Part shown: piece after piece, positions 24,500-57,941 of the stretch
Layout of the letters: every line of letters starts with the position of its first letter
Position numbering within the stretch: the first letter of the stretch is position 1
Assembly (NCBI RefSeq): GCF_003665155.1
Contig: NZ_RCFQ01000018.1
Span: 1-57,941 of the forward strand
Source: Mariprofundus sp. EBB-1
GTDB lineage: Bacteria > Pseudomonadota > Zetaproteobacteria > Mariprofundales > Mariprofundaceae
Reading direction: 5' to 3'
Length of the DNA: 57,941 nucleotides
Position numbers and translations under genes: made by a program
The notes under the pieces: model-generated
The model's database searches: none
Told to the model about the DNA's origin: nothing
What the model saw: only the letters and a program-made list of their open reading frames with translations

Positions 24500-27400
24500 A
24501 TGTTTGCAAAATTAATTGATGCAGCGATCAATAACCGTCTACTGATTCTTATGTTGCTAATTGGTTCAATGGCTTATGCCATGTTTGTGGTGCCAAAACT
24601 TAATCTCGATGCATTTCCAGATGTGACCAATGTGCAGGTGCAGATTAATACTGAAGCGCAAGGGCTGGCTTCCGAAGAAGTCGAGCAACTGATTACCTAT
24701 CCGATTGAAGCGGTGATGTATTCATTGCCTGATGTTGAAGAAGTGCGCTCAATTTCCAAGACGGGTCTTTCTGTAATTACCGTGGTATTCAAAGAAAGCA
24801 CGGATATATATTTTGCCCGCCAGTTGGTATTCCAAAAACTGCAAGATGCCCGTCAAACGGTTCCAGCCTGGGCAGGCACACCCAAAGTCGGGCCGAATAC
24901 GTCAGGGCTTGGTCAGGTATTCCAGTATATTATTAAATCCGATCCAACTGCAGGCTTTGATGCATTGACACTGCGCGCCTTGAACGACTGGGTAGTGAAG
25001 CTAATGCTGATGCCTGTAGAAGGGGTGACCGACATCCTTTCCTACGGTGGACAGGTACGCCAATATCAGGTGCAACTCAATGCGGAAAAGCTGCTCTCCT
25101 ACAAACTGCATGTCGCCGATGTTGTGACGGCCATTGAGTCCAACAATCGCAATGCAGGTGGCTGGTATCTGCCTCAGGGTGACGAGCAACTGGTAATTCG
25201 TGGCGTGGGCTGGGTGCCTGGTGGAAAAGATGGCTTGGCTGCAATAGCAGCTATTCCCGTTAAGACCGTCAACGGCACTTCGATTCGTGTTCGTGATGTC
25301 GCAAATGTGGCTTTTGGTGGAGAAATTCGTCAGGGCTCTGTCACCATGATTGAACGTACATCTGATGGTGACATCAAGCAGCTTGGTGAAGTCGTCGTGG
25401 GTATTGTGCTTAAACGCTTTGGTGCGAACACCAAAAATACCATTGATGATGTGAAGTCACGATTGGAAATTGTGCAGAAGTCCATGCCTAAAGGGGTCAC
25501 CATTCAACCGTTTTATGATCAGTCAGACTTGATCAATAAAGCCGTGTGGACGGTTGAAAAGGCACTGCTCGAAGCCTTTGTACTGATCATCATTGTATTG
25601 TTTTTATTCCTGATGAACGTACGAGCCGCAACACTGGTTCTATTGTCGGTTCCAATTTCAGTGTTATCAGCTCTGGCTGTGATGCAGCATTATGGTATTT
25701 CAGCCAATTTAATGAGCTTGGGTGGTTTGGCGATTGCCATCGGCATGATGGTCGATGGCTCGGTAGTGATGGTGGAAAACATCTTCAAACACCTGGAGAA
25801 GACACAGGCAGGTGATCATGGCATCGCGCTGCGTATCACCGAAGCCTCCAAAGAAGTTGCACGACCTGTACTCTTTGCGGTGTTAATCATTCTGCTTGTC
25901 TTTACGCCGTTATTCTCCCTTGAAGGTGTGGAAGGTAAAATGTTTACGCCAATGGCTCTGTCCATTTGTTTTGCAATGTTCGCATCATTGTTGGTAGCTC
26001 TATTTGTTATGCCGGTACTGGCAACCTTTGCATTCACCAAAGGTGTGGTTCATAAAGATAGCCCAGTATTGGCACCTATTGCTCGGCTTTATCATCGGCT
26101 GCTTCATTCGGCTCTCAACGCACGCAAACGAGTGGTTGCGGGAGCTGCGGTAGCATTCATATCTACACTTGCGGTGGTTCCGTTTTTAGGTACGGAGTTT
26201 GTGCCTGAACTGGAGGAAGGAACGTTGGCTATTCGGGTGACTCTGGCTCCGTCTTCATCTCTGGCTTATGCCAAAGATACTGGCGAGAAACTGGAACGCT
26301 TATTAATTGAAGCCTTTCCTGAGGTAACCTACGTGTCTGCCCGTGTCGGACGATCTGAAATCGGTGGTGATCCTGAACCGGTCTCTAATGTCGAACTCTT
26401 TGTCGGCCTCAAACCGGTAGATGAATGGACAAGTGCTCATGATCGACAGGCACTGCAAAAACTTATGCGTGAAAAAATGGAAGTGATGCCGGGTCTGTTA
26501 ATTGCCTTTACTCAGCCGATTGCCATGCGTGTTGATGAGTTGATCTCCGGTGTCAAAGCCGCTCTTGCCATTAAGCTGTTCGGGCCTGATCTCAAGGTGT
26601 TGGCTGAGATGGGTAAAAAGATCGAAACATTAACCAAAAGCGTTAACGGTACGCGTGATGTGGCGATGGAACAGATTGAAGGTGAAGCGCAATTGGTGAT
26701 TCGTCCTGATCGCACCAAGCTGGATCGTTATGGTATTCCGGTTGATGATGTCATGAGTCTGGTTGCAGACGCCATTGGCGGAGCTGTTGCAGGACAAGTG
26801 ATTTCCGGTAATGAACGTTATAATATCTATGTCCGCCTAGCTAAAGATTTTCGTGATAGTGCTGAGGCTATTGGCAGTCTTATCTTACAAGCGCCAGGAG
26901 GTGCCTGGGTTCGTCTGGAAGATGTTGCATCGATTGGCGTGGAGCAAGGGCTACCGATGATCAAACGCGATGATGTGCAGCGCCGCGTGGTGATTCAAAG
27001 CAATGTCGAAGATCGCGATATGGGCTCATTGGTCGCCGAACTTGATCAGCGTATCCAGAACGAGATTGATCTACCACCTGGCTATACCGTGGTCTTTGGT
27101 GGGCAATTCGAAAATCAGCAACGCGCCCAGGCTAAACTAATGATTGTCGTACCATTGTCCTTATTGATGATCTTTATTCTGCTCTATTTCATGTTCCACT
27201 CGATGGGACAGGCCACTTTGATCATGCTGAATGTTCCGATGGCATTGATAGGTGGAATCCTAGCTTTATGGGCTTCGGATCAGTATCTGTCCGTACCTTC
27301 CAGCATCGGATTCATTGCCCTGTTCGGTGTAGCGGTACTCAATGGTGTTGTGCTCGTGGATGCGATCAATCGGCATCGAGATGACTGTAGCGATCTCAAG

Positions 27401-27631
27401 GAGGCCATCTGCAATGGTGCAGAGAGCCGGTTAAGACCGGTGTTAATGACAGCCATGATTGCTGGACTTGGGTTGGTTCCTTTGCTATTGGCTACAGGGA
27501 TTGGTTCAGAGATTCAAAAGCCGTTGGCAACGGTGGTAGTCGGAGGTCTAGTCTCCTCTACTATTTTAACCTTGTTTTTGCTGCCGTGTTTGTATGAGTT
27601 ATTTACTAAAGATAGAGGTGAATTATCATGA
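24500..27631 (+). CDS. czcA: Heavy-metal RND efflux pump (CzcA/CusA family)
   Basis: The start chosen is ATG 24500 (MFAKLIDAAINNRLL) with GAGGTAAG upstream; a longer frame into czcB is rejected. The 1043-aa protein has the twelve-helix RND pattern and two large periplasmic loops. The TM4 proton-relay motif reads AIAIGMMVDGSVVMVEN: the central Asp and the Glu are present, but the first Asp of the Zn/Co-type CzcA motif is not, as in Cu/Ag-type pumps. Metal specificity therefore cannot be set from sequence. No czcRS-type regulator lies in the cassette. Confidence 0.92.
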   Translation: MFAKLIDAAINNRLLILMLLIGSMAYAMFVVPKLNLDAFPDVTNVQVQINTEAQGLASEEVEQLITYPIEAVMYSLPDVEEVRSISKTGLSVITVVFKESTDIYFARQLVFQKLQDARQTVPAWAGTPKVGPNTSGLGQVFQYIIKSDPTAGFDALTLRALNDWVVKLMLMPVEGVTDILSYGGQVRQYQVQLNAEKLLSYKLHVADVVTAIESNNRNAGGWYLPQGDEQLVIRGVGWVPGGKDGLAAIAAIPVKTVNGTSIRVRDVANVAFGGEIRQGSVTMIERTSDGDIKQLGEVVVGIVLKRFGANTKNTIDDVKSRLEIVQKSMPKGVTIQPFYDQSDLINKAVWTVEKALLEAFVLIIIVLFLFLMNVRAATLVLLSVPISVLSALAVMQHYGISANLMSLGGLAIAIGMMVDGSVVMVENIFKHLEKTQAGDHGIALRITEASKEVARPVLFAVLIILLVFTPLFSLEGVEGKMFTPMALSICFAMFASLLVALFVMPVLATFAFTKGVVHKDSPVLAPIARLYHRLLHSALNARKRVVAGAAVAFISTLAVVPFLGTEFVPELEEGTLAIRVTLAPSSSLAYAKDTGEKLERLLIEAFPEVTYVSARVGRSEIGGDPEPVSNVELFVGLKPVDEWTSAHDRQALQKLMREKMEVMPGLLIAFTQPIAMRVDELISGVKAALAIKLFGPDLKVLAEMGKKIETLTKSVNGTRDVAMEQIEGEAQLVIRPDRTKLDRYGIPVDDVMSLVADAIGGAVAGQVISGNERYNIYVRLAKDFRDSAEAIGSLILQAPGGAWVRLEDVASIGVEQGLPMIKRDDVQRRVVIQSNVEDRDMGSLVAELDQRIQNEIDLPPGYTVVFGGQFENQQRAQAKLMIVVPLSLLMIFILLYFMFHSMGQATLIMLNVPMALIGGILALWASDQYLSVPSSIGFIALFGVAVLNGVVLVDAINRHRDDCSDLKEAICNGAESRLRPVLMTAMIAGLGLVPLLLATGIGSEIQKPLATVVVGGLVSSTILTLFLLPCLYELFTKDRGELS

Positions 27632-51183: not shown

Positions 51184-51517
51184 GGCCGCAATGTAACACG
51201 GAGCACATGGATGCTTAAGAAAGAAAAACAGAGCAGTGCGTTCAGGCAGAATATTTAATGACAAAAGACAGATTTAGGCCCGGAGGATATGCATCAGGGG
51301 AGGGGGGGGGAGATAACATATCCAGCCGGGCCAATTCTGTAATACAATCTATCGGAAGATAGCGTATTTACTTTAGCATTTGCAGCCAAGTAGTTTCAGA
51401 TGGGCTGAATCTAGTGGGAATTTTTATTCATAATGTGATCTACGTCATAAAAAATGAAAAAAGATCGATGCTATGCAACCATTTGTATTGAATAAGCTCT
51501 GCGCGCACTATTGAGAC
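51184..51517. other. Divergent spacer between mutS and a two-component operon
   Basis: No gene supported. It holds both promoters and a G-rich tract (GGGGA followed by nine G at 51302-51310). Confidence 0.45.
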
Positions 51518-52195
51518 ATGCGTATCTTATTGGTGGAAGATGATGACAGACAAGCGGAATTTATTGTTCAGGGACTAAAGCAGGCAGGTGTAAGCGTAGA
51601 TCATGCAGGTGATGGTGAGGACGGGCTATGTCAGGCATTGGCCGCTCCTTACGATGTCTATGTGTTTGATTTGATGTTACCGGTCCGGGATGGACTATCA
51701 TTGATCCATGAAGTGAGAGCTAGAGGTATTACAACGCCGATTCTGGTGCTTAGCGCGCGCAATTCAGTGGATGACCGTGTTAAAGGTTTGCAGGCAGGCG
51801 GCGATGATTATCTTGTCAAGCCGTTTGCATTTTCAGAGTTATTGGCGCGTGTCCAAGCACTCTACCGGCGTGCTACAGGTATGAGCGAACCGACGCAGTT
51901 GGCACAGGGGTCTCTGCAACTGGATCTGCAACGGCGTAAGGCATGGCGCGGTGAACAGGTGTTGGATTTGCAGCCTAAGGAGTTCGCTCTGCTCGAATAT
52001 CTGATGCGTAATGCGGGCCGAGTGGTTTCCAAAACAATGATTATGGAGCATGTCTGGGATTATAATTTTGATCCGCAGACCAATGTGGTGGAAGCGCGTA
52101 TTTCCAGATTGCGAGAGAAGGTGGATCGTCCCTTCACACAGCCATTGATTCATACGGTTCGTGGCATCGGTTACATGTTGGAAGATCAATCCTGA
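51518..52195 (+). CDS. OmpR/PhoB-family response regulator
   Basis: The 225-aa protein has a receiver (Asp in VFDLMLPVRDG, Lys in LVKPFAF) and a winged-helix output domain (LQPKEFALLEYLMRNAGRVV, ISRLREKVD). It is QseB/CopR-like. It overlaps its kinase by one base. Confidence 0.93.
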   Translation: MRILLVEDDDRQAEFIVQGLKQAGVSVDHAGDGEDGLCQALAAPYDVYVFDLMLPVRDGLSLIHEVRARGITTPILVLSARNSVDDRVKGLQAGGDDYLVKPFAFSELLARVQALYRRATGMSEPTQLAQGSLQLDLQRRKAWRGEQVLDLQPKEFALLEYLMRNAGRVVSKTMIMEHVWDYNFDPQTNVVEARISRLREKVDRPFTQPLIHTVRGIGYMLEDQS

Positions 52196-53562
52196 TGTTC
52201 CAGACCCTGCGATTTCGCTCGACTCTGTGGCATACACTGATTTTTTCCGGCATGGCACTGGTCATTTTTGCTATTGCCTATCAGACGGCAGCGAGTCAAT
52301 TGCTGGCCTCTCTGAGTGCCGACCTGGAAGATACTGCTGTGGAGTTTTCTGATCTGTATCGAAGTGGTGGTGTGAGTTCCTTGCGGGAAGAGGTGGCCAG
52401 TGAGTCCTTATCTCACGACAGTGGCCAGTTCTTCGCTCGTTATATTAATAAAGAAGGAGATGTAGCAGTGATCAGTCGGCCTGAAACATGGCTGGCGCCG
52501 TTGCCTGATCCGGACATGAATGGAGGTGCGCGGCAGTGGTTCGATGTCGTAGTCAATGCCGGTGGGGATAGCGCCCGCATTCTGACTGTCCGCATTGAGG
52601 GTGGCGGCTGGATTCAGGTAGGTATGTCCTTGCAGGGTTATCATACGCAGTTAGCACAGATTATCCGCCTGTTTGGCTGGTCGCTTATTCTGGTGGTGAT
52701 CGTCGGTGTGCTGACTGGCTGGTGGCAGGTGCGGCATGTGCTGGCCGGTGTGGATCAGGTGCGTCGTACCGCCAAGGAAATCGGTGAGGGTGATCTGGAT
52801 CGCAGACTGGTACTGGATGGGCATGGGCGGGAGTTGGTCGAACTGGCCGGTGTGTTTAATACGATGCTGGATCGCATTCAGGGGCTGTTGGGTGAAATGC
52901 GGGATGTCAGTGACCATATTGCCCATGATCTGCGTACTCCGGTGGCGCGTATTCGCGGTCTGGCTGAAAGCAGCCTGATGAAACAGGGGCAAGAAGCGGC
53001 GGCAACAGAGGAGTCACTGGCTGCGATTGTAGAGGAAAGTGATCGTTTATCCGCCATGATCAATACGATGCTGGAGATCGCTCAGACTGATTCCGGTGTA
53101 ATGCAGATGGAGACAGCTTGGGTGGATATTGCAGGTTTATTGCGCGAAGCACATGAACTGTTTTTGCCCGTTAGCGAAGATGCAGGAATTACGATGGTGC
53201 TGAAAACTGAAGATGCGCCGATGGTATTGACGGGCGATGCTGCCCGCCTGCAGCGGTTGATTGCCAACCTGTTGGATAATGCCATTAAATTCACACCTGC
53301 CGGAGGGCGTATCCGCTGCGCCGTTCAACGGGTCAAAGACACCATTACACTCACTGTTTCGGATACGGGTATAGGCGTCTCGGCTGAAGCACTGCCGCAT
53401 ATTTTCGAGCGATTTTACCGTGCAGATAACAGCCGCAGCACGCCCGGCAACGGCCTGGGGTTAAGTTATGCGCAAAGCATTGCCAGAGCACACGGCGGCG
53501 ATATTCATATCGACAGTCACCCCGGACAAGGAACAACCATTACGGTCAGTTTCTCAGTCTGA
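52195..53562 (+). CDS. Sensor histidine kinase of the OmpR-type pair
   Basis: The 455-aa inner-membrane kinase has helices near 12-32 and 152-175, a periplasmic sensor, HAMP, HisKA with His in SDHIAHDLRTPVARI, and HATPase (NLLDNAIKFT, DTGIGV, GNGLGLSYA). The envelope redox cluster follows after a stem-loop and may be its target. Confidence 0.93.
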   Translation: MFQTLRFRSTLWHTLIFSGMALVIFAIAYQTAASQLLASLSADLEDTAVEFSDLYRSGGVSSLREEVASESLSHDSGQFFARYINKEGDVAVISRPETWLAPLPDPDMNGGARQWFDVVVNAGGDSARILTVRIEGGGWIQVGMSLQGYHTQLAQIIRLFGWSLILVVIVGVLTGWWQVRHVLAGVDQVRRTAKEIGEGDLDRRLVLDGHGRELVELAGVFNTMLDRIQGLLGEMRDVSDHIAHDLRTPVARIRGLAESSLMKQGQEAAATEESLAAIVEESDRLSAMINTMLEIAQTDSGVMQMETAWVDIAGLLREAHELFLPVSEDAGITMVLKTEDAPMVLTGDAARLQRLIANLLDNAIKFTPAGGRIRCAVQRVKDTITLTVSDTGIGVSAEALPHIFERFYRADNSRSTPGNGLGLSYAQSIARAHGGDIHIDSHPGQGTTITVSFSV

Positions 53563-53590
53563 CCCAACATGACCAAATGGTCATGTTGGG
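53563..53590 (+). terminator. Stem-loop after the kinase gene
   Basis: CCCAACATGACCA and TGGTCATGTTGGG form a 13-bp perfect stem with a 2-base AA loop immediately after the stop. It has no T run; it may attenuate rather than stop transcription. Confidence 0.55.
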
Positions 53591-53647
53591 GGGTAGCTTA
53601 CGGTAATGTAACTTTGATAGGGTAGCCCCACTCTGAAGGAGGTGCTG

Positions 53648-54331
53648 ATGATGGTTCAGCGGTGTTATGTTTTACTGATGTTCAGTTGGGTGTTTCTTTT
53701 TTCTTTTTCAACTGCATATGCAAACGGAAATGCTCAAGAGGTCACAGAAAAGCTTTCAAATATAGAATATTACTCAGAAAATCTGGTTGATTCTATTCTC
53801 GCGAAAGACACAGTGGACTCCAAAAAACTGTACGAAAATATCCAACAAAATTTAGATCAGCTGCATCGTATATTTAGTGGAGATGCTTTTGATGAACGTA
53901 AATCACGGGAACTACTCTTAGCATATTCATGGTTGCGTGTTATTGCGGTTGATATGAATCAAGGGTCACGCATTGGGGTAGCAATAGCTGCTAATCAATT
54001 AAGTGCTTCGATGATCCGATCATTAAACTATCCCACCTTGTTTCAAAGAGATACCGCATGGATGGGGTATCTTTGCCGGGAATTACTGTTGTTAAATATC
54101 GAGGGAGACAGTATGAATAGGCAATTATTGGATGCTCGACGTATTGATCTTATAGATACATGGTTCAGGTTGAGAATAGAACTCAGTAAAAAAGATTTTC
54201 GGAATAAAACATTAGCCATCCATGGGAATAACCTTATTACTCTTCTTCAAGGTGAACATGATTCCAAAGTAACCATGAAAACAGCCAAAAAATTATTGCA
54301 ATTAATTGATGAGATTAAACAAGTTGAATAA
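53648..54331 (+). CDS. Exported helical protein, paralogue A of the redox cluster
   Basis: AAGGAGG precedes ATG 53648/53651. The 227-aa product has a signal peptide ending near AYANG and an all-helical mature part. The segment DTAWMGYLCRELLLLNIEG matches DIAWMDYLGRELLLLNKFP of the protein at 56089, and the flanking regions align too, so the two are paralogues. No haem motif is present. Function unknown. Confidence 0.72.
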   Translation: MMVQRCYVLLMFSWVFLFSFSTAYANGNAQEVTEKLSNIEYYSENLVDSILAKDTVDSKKLYENIQQNLDQLHRIFSGDAFDERKSRELLLAYSWLRVIAVDMNQGSRIGVAIAANQLSASMIRSLNYPTLFQRDTAWMGYLCRELLLLNIEGDSMNRQLLDARRIDLIDTWFRLRIELSKKDFRNKTLAIHGNNLITLLQGEHDSKVTMKTAKKLLQLIDEIKQVE

Positions 54332-54391
54332 AAAAATTATTTCGGTTTTTGGGTTGATCCTATACATATAACGGCCATTCTATTATTAAGT

Positions 54392-54937
54392 ATGCCAACT
54401 ACTGTATGGACCGGTGTGCAGATGGGGGGCATGACAATTCCGGGCAAGTCTGTCGTTGATGGACAAACACTGATATTGAACGGTACAGGCGTACGTTCAG
54501 TGTTTCTGTTGGATATCTACCTGATATCACTCTACCTCAATAGTCCATCCCATGATGCGGCATCGATTATTCAAGCGGGTCGACCAGCGCAACTGCGGAT
54601 TGATTTTTTACATGGCGGCGCGGGTCATGACATGTTGGCCAAAGGGTGGCGTAAAGGCTTTGAACGCAATCAATCAGCAGCCATGATGATTCGGTTAAAA
54701 GGCAGGTTGGAACAGTTCAGTGATCTGTTTGGCGATGTAAACAAAGGTGATGTGTTTTTTTTTGATTTCCTCTCAGATGGGGATACTCGAATACGTTTTG
54801 ACGAACACGTACAAGGTGTTATTCATGGCTCGGAATTCCAGCAAGCCTTACTTGCTATTTGGTTGGGGAAAAATCCGGTTGAAGACGGCCTGAAAAAAGA
54901 ACTATTACAGCAGAAAGAGTTTCGCAAACAATTATAA
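54392..54937 (+). CDS. Chalcone isomerase-like domain protein
   Basis: The 181-aa frame carries the bacterial chalcone-isomerase-like pattern (LNGTGVRSVFLLDIYLISLY, FLHGGAGHDMLAKGWRKGF, WLGKNPVEDGLKKELL). Relatives are exported, yet this frame begins without a signal peptide. A signal-like TTG-initiated stretch (MNKKIISVFGLILYI from 54324) lies in another frame just upstream, and the in-frame codons before ATG 54392 (TAILLLS) are hydrophobic, suggesting a frameshift near 54367. Confidence 0.72.
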   Translation: MPTTVWTGVQMGGMTIPGKSVVDGQTLILNGTGVRSVFLLDIYLISLYLNSPSHDAASIIQAGRPAQLRIDFLHGGAGHDMLAKGWRKGFERNQSAAMMIRLKGRLEQFSDLFGDVNKGDVFFFDFLSDGDTRIRFDEHVQGVIHGSEFQQALLAIWLGKNPVEDGLKKELLQQKEFRKQL

Positions 54938-54957
54938 TCTCAATATCTGGAGGGAAA

Positions 54958-55380
54958 ATGAAAAACAAAACACTGATGATATGTGTAATTTCAGGATTAA
55001 TCGCAGCCTCGCCAATCTCTGCGATAGCACATGATGCAGGTAATTTGAATGAAATAGAAAGCAAACTTACTGATAGCCTTAAAGGTATTCCTGAAGATGT
55101 AGAGAACGGATCGATTGCAGTGGATGAAGACACTCCTAAAACACAATTATCCCAATTAGCTACTGTTGGCATCGAACGTGCCATCGCCATTGCCCACCAA
55201 ACCCTGCAAGGGAAGATCATTAAATCCGAGTTAGAAGAAGCAGAGGATTATCTTGTTTGGGAGGTAGAAGTAATACCTGAAAAAGGATCCCCGATGGAGT
55301 TAAAAATAGACGCTGGCAATGGAAAACTACTGGCCGCCGAACAGAAAGAGGAAGAAGCATGGTGGCAGTTTTGGGATTAA
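54958..55380 (+). CDS. PepSY domain protein
   Basis: CTGGAGGG precedes the ATG. The 140-aa exported protein (signal cleavage near ISAIAHD) contains a PepSY fold: GIERAIAIAHQTLQGKIIKS, then YLVWEVEVIPEKGSPMELKI and DAGNGKLLAAEQ. It overlaps the b-type cytochrome gene by 22 bases; PepSY and cytochrome b often function together at the membrane. Confidence 0.85.
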   Translation: MKNKTLMICVISGLIAASPISAIAHDAGNLNEIESKLTDSLKGIPEDVENGSIAVDEDTPKTQLSQLATVGIERAIAIAHQTLQGKIIKSELEEAEDYLVWEVEVIPEKGSPMELKIDAGNGKLLAAEQKEEEAWWQFWD

Positions 55381-56045
55381 ACCAAAACACAAGTATGGCT
55401 GACCATTCACTACTGTTGCGTTGGCTTCATGCCGGGGTTGCTTTAGGGGCAGTATATCAATTGGTAACCAGTCTGGTTTTATTGCCTCCTGACGAAAAAG
55501 GTGGTGTTTTTGGTCATACCATGATGGAGGCGCACGAACTGGGAGGGTTGCTAATTGCTGCAATCGTCGCCAGCCATTTTATCTGGTCTCTCCTAGTTCG
55601 GTCTGAGTATAACCCAGGTTTGTCTGTGCTAGTGAGTTGTAAGCAGTGGAAAGAAGCTTTTGCACTAATCAGAACGCTTCCAGCCGGGCTCATCGGCAAG
55701 GCCAAACTGCCATCACCGGACAACAGCCTGGCAAAGATTGTTGAAATGCTGGGATTGCTGGTGATGGTTTCAATGGCAGGAACAGGTATGGCTATTTGGG
55801 TCGGACTGCCTGACACAAGCTTGGCTGTTATTCCGGAAGATACGGATTTTTTAATGCAAGTGCATTCACTGCTATCCAACCTTCTGTGGGTATATGTGAT
55901 TGGGCATGTATGTATGACCTTGGCGCATGCGCGAGGTGGTGAGCCGATCCTGCAACGAATATCTCCTTTCTATAGCCCGCCAGAAATAAGCGACCTATCA
56001 AAAAGAAAGGGCTTTATAAAAGAAGAAAATGAGATGACAAAATAA
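55359..56045 (+). CDS. Cytochrome b561-like membrane protein
   Basis: The 228-aa protein has four helices with candidate haem His in LLLRWLHAGV, MEAHELGGLL, ASHFIW, QVHSLLSN and VIGHVCMT. It is a di-haem b-type electron carrier between quinol and periplasmic partners. ATG 55395 is an alternative start. Overlap with PepSY indicates one operon. Confidence 0.85.
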   Translation: MVAVLGLNQNTSMADHSLLLRWLHAGVALGAVYQLVTSLVLLPPDEKGGVFGHTMMEAHELGGLLIAAIVASHFIWSLLVRSEYNPGLSVLVSCKQWKEAFALIRTLPAGLIGKAKLPSPDNSLAKIVEMLGLLVMVSMAGTGMAIWVGLPDTSLAVIPEDTDFLMQVHSLLSNLLWVYVIGHVCMTLAHARGGEPILQRISPFYSPPEISDLSKRKGFIKEENEMTK

Positions 56046-56088
56046 GCGCTTCATTAGAAATAATAAGTTTCAAAAAAAGGAGAATAAA

Positions 56089-56781
56089 ATGATAAAAACG
56101 GGTGCAAAAATTGCTATTACGACCATTCTTATTGCTGGAGTTTCCATTGTCTCAGTATATACGATGCCTATGGCGACGTCGCAAGTTAAAGGTGTTCTAA
56201 TGCAGATGGAATCTCCGGCAGAAGACATGCTGGATGCCATTGATCATAAAGACATGAGTAAATTGAATGCATTGTATCATGATCTCAGCGTTTCAATGCA
56301 GCAGCTAAACAATACCCCTGCCAAAGATAATGCACAGGACAGGCAGGTCGCACTGCAAAACTCATGGTTTGATCTGATCTCGCTCGAAATGGCAGAGATG
56401 GACGATTTTCCAGCCCTTGCCAATGCAATCAACCAATTTTCAGGACAGTTGATTGTAGCTACAGACTTTGAGCATGGATATCAGAAGGACATTGCCTGGA
56501 TGGATTATCTGGGGCGTGAATTGCTATTGCTGAATAAATTCCCTTCAGCGTCAGCCCACCATGAGGCGTTAATAAAAGTCAGAAAAGCAGAGCTTAATAC
56601 AACATGGGAAAGCATCAAGCTACTGCTCAATAGTAAAAAAGGTGGTGTTGAGCTGGTTAAAAAAATTGATCCCACAATTCAATTATTGCTGGAAGAATCT
56701 GATGCCGGTAAACTTGTCTCACTATCCAATATAGAGCTTGATCTGGTTGATGATATCGAATCATTTTTCCATATTGACTAG
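56089..56781 (+). CDS. Exported helical protein, paralogue B
   Basis: The 230-aa product has a signal/anchor helix at its N-terminus and a helical body homologous to the protein at 53648 (shared AWM-YL-RELLLLN). It ends IESFFHID with the stop codon formed by the first bases of an inserted MITE-like element, so the native C-terminus may have differed. Function unknown. Confidence 0.72.
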   Translation: MIKTGAKIAITTILIAGVSIVSVYTMPMATSQVKGVLMQMESPAEDMLDAIDHKDMSKLNALYHDLSVSMQQLNNTPAKDNAQDRQVALQNSWFDLISLEMAEMDDFPALANAINQFSGQLIVATDFEHGYQKDIAWMDYLGRELLLLNKFPSASAHHEALIKVRKAELNTTWESIKLLLNSKKGGVELVKKIDPTIQLLLEESDAGKLVSLSNIELDLVDDIESFFHID

Positions 56782-56996
56782 GAATCTATCGGACTTAGGG
56801 TGATTGTAGCGAGCAGGAGCAAGCAGCGGTGCTCCCGCTGCGCGATGGTTTAAGGAGCATAGTAGTAACTATGTGACGATAAACCGGGGTGCTTTTGGTC
56901 GCTATGCCCACGGCACACGGCTGCATGGATGCAGGAGGTAGAGCAACGCAGGAGAAGCTTCCGAGTAGCTTGCTCATAAGTCCGATAGACTCCTAG
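56778..56996. mobile_element. MITE-like element with 19-20-bp terminal inverted repeats
   Basis: CTAGGAATCTATCGGACTTA at the left and the reverse complement of TAAGTCCGATAGACTCCTAG at the right match at 19 of 20. The 219-bp body has no gene. It lies directly at the 3' end of the previous gene. The remaining bases to 57082 hold the promoter of the next gene. Confidence 0.65.
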
Positions 56997-57082
56997 CTGT
57001 CCCGATCAAGGAGCTTAAACCGGTAATCCATTCCATTCGCTGGCATGGCTTACCTAAATATTTTAAATGTGAGTTCAAATTA

Positions 57083-57889
57083 ATGAGTCAACGTCGTATT
57101 CAATGGTACCATAGTCGGTTTCGTATGATCTTTGCTCATATATTTATTGGGTCAATGTTTGGTGTGATCATCCTTCACCCCATAACAAAAGTTATCTATT
57201 GGCTTGAAATTAAAGAAAGTTTGACTGGCGATGCGAGCAACTTACAGAGTTTTTTATTAAACCAATTTCAACAATCTCTTTCTTATGATCAGTGGTTAAT
57301 CAATTTTATTTTTGCAACGATAGGCATAGGTATCAGCATGATTTTTACCTACTATAATCAAAAAATCCTTAATCAAAGTCGTCAAATTCAGCTCATGGAG
57401 CAGATGCTGTCGACTGATACTCCAAGTCTTATTTCTTCTGGAGAAAGTGAATTTTTGGAATTTAAATCTTCTGTGCGATGGGATATTCGGCGCGATTGCA
57501 TTAACAAGGATTTAGAACCCATTATCACAAAATCGATTGCAGGGTTTATGAATCACAAAGGTGGCACACTGATTCTTGGCGTGGCTGATAGTGGTGATAT
57601 CGTTGGTTTAGAAAATGATTTTAATACTATTAAACATAAAAACAGAGATGGCTTTGAGCGACTTATTATGGATCTCATCGAAGTGTCGCTGGGGCGCGAC
57701 TGTTGTGCTCTAGTGCACTGTACATTTCAAACGATAGAAGCTAAAGAAATTTGCAGAATCTCCATTGATGCTTCTAAAATACCTGTGTATGTGAAAAAAG
57801 GGCACTTTGCTCAGTATTTTGTTCGTACTGGAAATGGAACGCGCGAACTTGATGCGCGTGAGGCGCACGCCCACATTTTGCAGCATTGA
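57083..57889 (+). CDS. Membrane-anchored AlbA_2/Schlafen-type domain protein
   Basis: The 268-aa protein has two N-terminal helices (about 15-40 and 70-92) and a cytosolic AlbA_2 domain (ESEFLEFKSSVRWDIRRDCI, KSIAGFMNHKGGTLILGVAD, YVKKGHFAQYFVRTGNGTRE). AlbA_2 domains bind nucleic acid and occur in regulators and defence proteins; a membrane-tethered version is less common. Bases 57890-57941 show nothing I can name. Confidence 0.82.
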   Translation: MSQRRIQWYHSRFRMIFAHIFIGSMFGVIILHPITKVIYWLEIKESLTGDASNLQSFLLNQFQQSLSYDQWLINFIFATIGIGISMIFTYYNQKILNQSRQIQLMEQMLSTDTPSLISSGESEFLEFKSSVRWDIRRDCINKDLEPIITKSIAGFMNHKGGTLILGVADSGDIVGLENDFNTIKHKNRDGFERLIMDLIEVSLGRDCCALVHCTFQTIEAKEICRISIDASKIPVYVKKGHFAQYFVRTGNGTRELDAREAHAHILQH

Positions 57890-57941
57890 TGTTGCTTCAA
57901 GGCTCAATTCGTCCTATTCAGCATCAATGGATGCCAGGCAA

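Follow-up and report, generated by a model that had tools for sequence, protein, structure and literature searches.

The closest described systems to the locus studied here are CusRS–CusCFBA of E. coli, the RppAB/NrsRS-type two-component systems of cyanobacteria and the SHP-type cluster of dihaem cytochrome c, DUF1924, cytochrome b561 and OmpR-type two-component genes. In the Cus system, M573, M623 and M672 of CusA form a methionine triad for copper and silver. How iron-oxidising bacteria of the Zetaproteobacteria handle metal stress is poorly known; bacteria of the Mariprofundus type live amid Fe(II) and Mn(II).

The DNA analysed here (the window) is the entire contig C10, 57,941 nt long, of the 2.88-Mb draft genome of Mariprofundus sp. 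EBB-1. On its forward strand, the gene of an OmpR-type response regulator of the CusR/CzcR/HprR group (51518-52195; PF00072 and PF00486) is followed by that of a sensor histidine kinase with a short periplasmic domain (52195-53562; HAMP, HisKA and HATPase domains). Five more forward-strand genes lie downstream of this pair, in the order that the original prediction had given: two paralogous exported proteins, modelled as all-helical and given the working names PARA1 (53648-54331) and PARA2 (56089-56781), bracket three other genes and are 29% identical over 197 amino acids (E 2e-19). The genes between them encode a chalcone isomerase-like Chalcone_3 protein (54392-54937; PF16036, E 3e-42, 145 bits against a cut-off of 27), an exported PepSY-domain protein (54958-55380; PF03413, E 2.7e-12, 47.2 bits against a cut-off of 24) and a cytochrome b561-type membrane protein (55359-56045; PF01292, E 1.4e-19, 71 bits against a cut-off of 30.1), the last overlapping the PepSY gene by 22 nt. 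PARA1 has two in-frame ATG starts, at 53648 and 53651, behind GAAGGAGG. No Rfam element was found in 51200-57941. Among the papers listed for Mariprofundus we saw no description of the cluster, and in the literature searched no paper linked PepSY to cytochrome b561.

The response regulator shares 44% identity with CusR of E. coli, and its best NCBIfam match is TIGR01387 (248.9 bits, under the cut-off of 279.2); that of the kinase is TIGR01386 (243.2 bits, under the cut-off of 292.55). Orthologues of the kinase were found in 9 of 78 zetaproteobacterial genomes. In their alignment, E66, E70 and H74 of the sensor domain are invariant (E-x3-E-x3-H), a helical spacing that could serve to bind a metal ion.

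Between the kinase gene and PARA1 lies the palindrome CATGACCAAATGGTCATG, operator-like and conserved at this regulon in relatives (AACATGACCAAATGGTCATGTT, 53566-53587). Its core recurs in relatives upstream of either PARA1 or the channel gene of an efflux operon, and the palindrome directly follows the kinase gene in the window and in three related loci (L034, L047 and L181). At a fixed spacing downstream there is a conserved ACTTCCGG-AATGT block, and about 32 nt downstream a promoter-like TAnnnT hexamer; by this spacing, the predicted start site would lie about 53 nt downstream of the palindrome's centre. When the pattern CATGACCANNTGGTCATG was searched for with at most one mismatch, it occurred at 10 places in the 78 genomes, all of them at this regulon and one of them in the host genome; the reversed pattern, used as a control, occurred at none. 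In four genomes (G033, G044, G045 and G007) the site was present with no kinase orthologue detected among the top candidates, which alone were scored. The CusR box of E. coli K-12, AAAATGACAATTTTGTCATTTT, matches the palindrome at 16 of 22 positions. We also considered an HprR-like TTACN6GTAA site (53598-53611) as the operator and rejected it, as it occurs once in the window where 0.5 are expected and relatives do not keep it in front of PARA1.

PARA1 and PARA2 share a motif (AWMGYLCRELLLLN and AWMDYLGRELLLLN, respectively) that had been thought unlike any known family, and searches of Pfam and NCBIfam with both proteins indeed returned no family match. They are the only PARA copies in the host genome. 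At the protein level both lineages are conserved in relatives, and the paralogues of the cluster are therefore not a chance resemblance; PARA2 and five other proteins of the same genus make up a supported branch (100/100). A 25-member profile found the family in 25 of the 78 zetaproteobacterial genomes (best E-values at or below 4.8e-75) and in no other genome among 398 sampled from the phylum. The idea that PARA is confined to Zetaproteobacteria was nonetheless dropped, since two distant homologues turned up on pCHRO.01, a plasmid of Chroococcidiopsis thermalis (L198 6755-7567 and L199 7789-8556). These score 45 and 38 bits against the PARA profile, compared to at most 8 bits for unrelated neighbouring proteins, and they retain the NQ, DYxGRE and TW positions of the family. 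One of them lies directly 3' of a kinase that passes the RppB cut-off, which suggests that PARA might act on the sensor side. Kinship with the sporulation protein YpjB (PF09577/TIGR02878) was not adopted: it appeared weakly and through the cyanobacterial proteins only, below both cut-offs (19.4 against 24 bits and 16.7 against 229 bits), and YpjB was absent from the families listed for the PARA members themselves at E-values of 1 or lower. Sequence comparison of PARA with solved structures gave nothing significant.

The invariant residues of the family are N115, Q116, W137, Y140, L148, R163, W171 and L188 (PARA1 numbering). No His or Cys column is conserved in at least 80% of the 25 sequences and, start codon aside, Met exceeds 80% at position 38 alone (21 of 25). 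Because conserved His and Cys are absent, carriage of haem or a soft metal by PARA appears unlikely from the alignment; a polar or aromatic ligand pocket, or a protein-binding face, seems more likely. The structure models are confident past the signal peptide (pLDDT 85.6 for PARA1 and 84.3 for PARA2), and the eight helices in each can be read as two four-helix bundles. Foldseek searches with the models gave no significant match. The NIT region of NasR was the top whole-length match of the PARA2 model (Z 14.1, 4.9 Å, 209 residues); for PARA1 it ranked 39th (Z 11.5, 5.5 Å, 219 residues), tied with unrelated bundles, and we did not assign PARA to the NIT/PilJ/NarX sensor domains, which fold as double or single four-helix bundles, since the NasR match is not distinctive for PARA1.

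To assess the neighbourhood conservation of the five genes, which the original prediction had expected not to occur separately, we examined PARA clusters in relatives. Contrary to that expectation, all five genes stand together in the host genome only, and relatives carry subsets of them: three PARA clusters have b561, three have Chalcone_3 and two have PepSY. Chalcone_3 orthologues above 60% identity occur only beside PARA1 (in G014 and G017), and relatives at about 40% identity are located elsewhere. The Chalcone_3 reading frame lacks a signal peptide; a signal-like MNKKIISVFGLILYI is encoded in another frame (54324-54392, from TTG 54324) and overlaps the end of PARA1. This arrangement suggests a one-base frameshift or a sequencing error, and the signal peptide seems to have been lost to a frameshift. 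The PepSY protein has a 52% identical homologue in the cluster of G019. The window b561 protein has all four haem-ligand histidines (24, 59, 169 and 183), which relatives also keep, with a single exception in L044, and its relatives in G037, G044 and G022 sit in Cus/DUF411/copper-ATPase-like clusters, the copper-ATPase being a reading by eye. PARA1 itself is found in other company. In one genus (L047, 2788-9537) it accompanies a cluster of dihaem cytochrome, DUF1924, b561 and two-component genes with two copies of the operator, the two-component system and operator being the same and an adjacent pump being absent. In several genera (L040-L043 and L046) PARA1 is an orphan; its role is therefore not tied to the efflux operon or to the two-component system.

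The recurrent partner of PARA is an RND efflux pump. In seven loci (L031, L032, L034, L037, L038, L044 and L049) PARA is followed by the genes of a channel, an adaptor and an RND pump, directly except where a PepSY gene (L037) or a b561 gene (L044) intervenes; in an eighth (L050) PARA precedes a channel gene at which the contig ends. The channel operon of L045 begins 1.5 kb downstream of PARA1. The channel, adaptor and pump match PF02321, TIGR01730 and PF00873, respectively, and the adaptor also bears the CusB-type domain PF16576. The orthologous pump occurs in 10 of the 78 genomes, all 10 of which carry PARA (hypergeometric p 2.6e-6, with genomes treated as independent and their relatedness ignored). 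In the host genome, contig C10 ends before the efflux genes of this operon would be reached. The pump orthologue lies on contig C43, is 82% identical to that of G010 and is preceded by the orthologous adaptor and, at the very start of the contig, by the 3'-terminal 46 nt of a channel-like gene. A search of the host assembly did not find the channel gene, which may fall in the gap between C10 and C43, two contigs that are separate in the assembly and that we infer to be neighbours. Between PARA2 and the end of C10 lies a gene for a Schlafen/AlbA_2-domain membrane protein (57083-57889; PF04326, E 6.3e-17), possibly an insertion into the efflux operon. It is preceded by a repeat of about 215 nt (56781-57003) with perfect 13-bp terminal inverted repeats (TCTATCGGACTTA and TAAGTCCGATAGA), which folds far better than shuffled sequences (z -6.4) and is MITE-like; incomplete copies of it occur at the starts of contigs and at other places in the genome. 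C10 also carries a second, distant RND pump (24539-27616; 28% identical).

In L181 and L180 the operator precedes the channel gene and PARA is absent; the core of two-component system, operator and efflux genes is therefore separable from PARA. The same two loci (L181 7694-11877 and L180 7915-11103) combine the same operator and channel gene with a different adaptor and RND pump type, that is, pumps are swapped under one regulator. In five pump orthologues the CusA methionines 573, 623 and 672 are replaced by D, E or Q, and D, which argues against Cu(I) or Ag(I) and, judged from these residues, would leave divalent ions or organic cations as substrates. TM4 of the pump carries an AcrB-like DD pair. 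The G010 orthologue scores 460.3 bits against TIGR00914 (CusA/CzcA), under the cut-off of 701.45, and the top-scoring model of the RND protein is a multidrug RND model, likewise below its cut-off.

The computation establishes the operon context in relatives, the conserved operator, the host-genome pump orthologue and the predicted PARA fold. The cluster is best explained as a Cus-like efflux operon under a two-component system, with a variable redox and accessory head, and the five genes probably form that accessory head in Mariprofundus. There is good support for what the operon is, but not for what PARA does. In the mechanism that we propose, the sensor kinase would respond to a signal in the periplasm, for which a divalent metal ion is the likeliest candidate, and the response regulator would bind the palindrome and activate the operon from this position, about 53 nt ahead of the predicted start. 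PARA1, the accessory proteins and PARA2 would then be produced, along with the channel, adaptor and RND pump encoded further downstream, and these last three would expel the compound. We infer that PARA1 and PARA2 may be helical periplasmic partners of the sensor, binding a ligand or modulating the kinase, rather than pump subunits or haem carriers. The sensor-side role is preferred because the operator and channel occur without PARA in L180 and L181, because PARA1 occurs with the two-component system and operator and no adjacent pump in L047, and because a cyanobacterial homologue directly follows an RppB-type kinase. That PARA is a new and broadly spread exported family of double four-helix bundles, acting as ligand-binding partners of metal-type sensor kinases in Zetaproteobacteria and, distantly, cyanobacteria and, in Mariprofundus, tuning the efflux of divalent ions of the Fe(II)/Mn(II) type, is a distinctly unlikely extension of this reading when taken as a whole.

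The main rival to a sensor-side role is that PARA1 and PARA2 are pump-side chaperones that give the substrate to the adaptor or pump, holding the place of CusF in CusCFBA. In most pump operons PARA is the immediate 5' neighbour of the channel gene, and every pump-bearing genome has PARA, but the operons of L180 and L181 open with the channel gene itself, many PARA1 genes are orphans and the family lacks conserved soft-metal ligands; we regard this role as possible, if somewhat unlikely. Alternatively, the locus could be a general envelope-stress or lipid-binding module in which Chalcone_3 and PARA bind amphipathic compounds expelled by a pump with HAE-like traits, metals being incidental. The multidrug RND model as sub-threshold top score, the DD pair of TM4 and the missing methionine triad fit that idea. 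It is set against the Cus-like operator and two-component system, the CusB-type domain of the adaptor, the b561 relatives in metal-efflux clusters and the acidic or Gln residues (Asp at two positions, Glu or Gln at the third) where CusA has methionine, and we consider it rather unlikely.

The original prediction had seen an envelope redox cluster whose five proteins might act together in the membrane as a complex for electron transfer or haem handling; in such a complex, b561 would pass quinol electrons to PepSY, Chalcone_3 and PARA. The operator palindrome, the efflux-pump context and the apparent loss of the Chalcone_3 signal peptide were not part of that prediction. The envelope character of the gene set and a b561 protein with its four haem histidines held up, and the overlap of the PepSY and b561 genes and the company of dihaem cytochromes, DUF1924 and b561 around PARA1 in L047 are in line with electron transfer; the recurrent downstream partner of PARA, however, proved to be the pump. 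An obligate complex is unlikely because conserved His and Cys are absent from PARA and the five genes are together only here, and the proposal as a whole seems quite improbable. It is possible that b561 supplies electrons to an efflux or sensing step.

Through our analysis, a previously unassigned cluster of five genes in an iron-oxidising bacterium becomes a regulon that can be tested and whose operator, regulator and pump are defined. It also defines PARA as an exported family absent from Pfam and NCBIfam, with a cyanobacterial homologue beside a redox/metal-type kinase.

With the RppAB/NrsRS-type systems, the locus shares a distant PARA homologue placed after the RppB-type kinase on the Chroococcidiopsis plasmid; its own kinase belongs to another subfamily, and the Chroococcidiopsis record has no adjacent RND genes. 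PARA1 stands in an SHP-type cluster with the same operator in G037 and G044, whereas the window cluster has no c-type cytochrome. As in CusRS–CusCFBA, an OmpR-type two-component system adjoins its target, a palindromic box of equal length is identical at 16 of 22 positions, and a channel-adaptor-RND operon has the gene of a small periplasmic protein in its midst. The Mariprofundus-type system differs in that its two-component proteins score under the curated family cut-offs, its pump has D, E/Q and D in place of the M573/M623/M672 triad, PARA and CusF are unrelated by sequence, and genes for PARA, Chalcone_3, PepSY and b561 have been added to the cluster.
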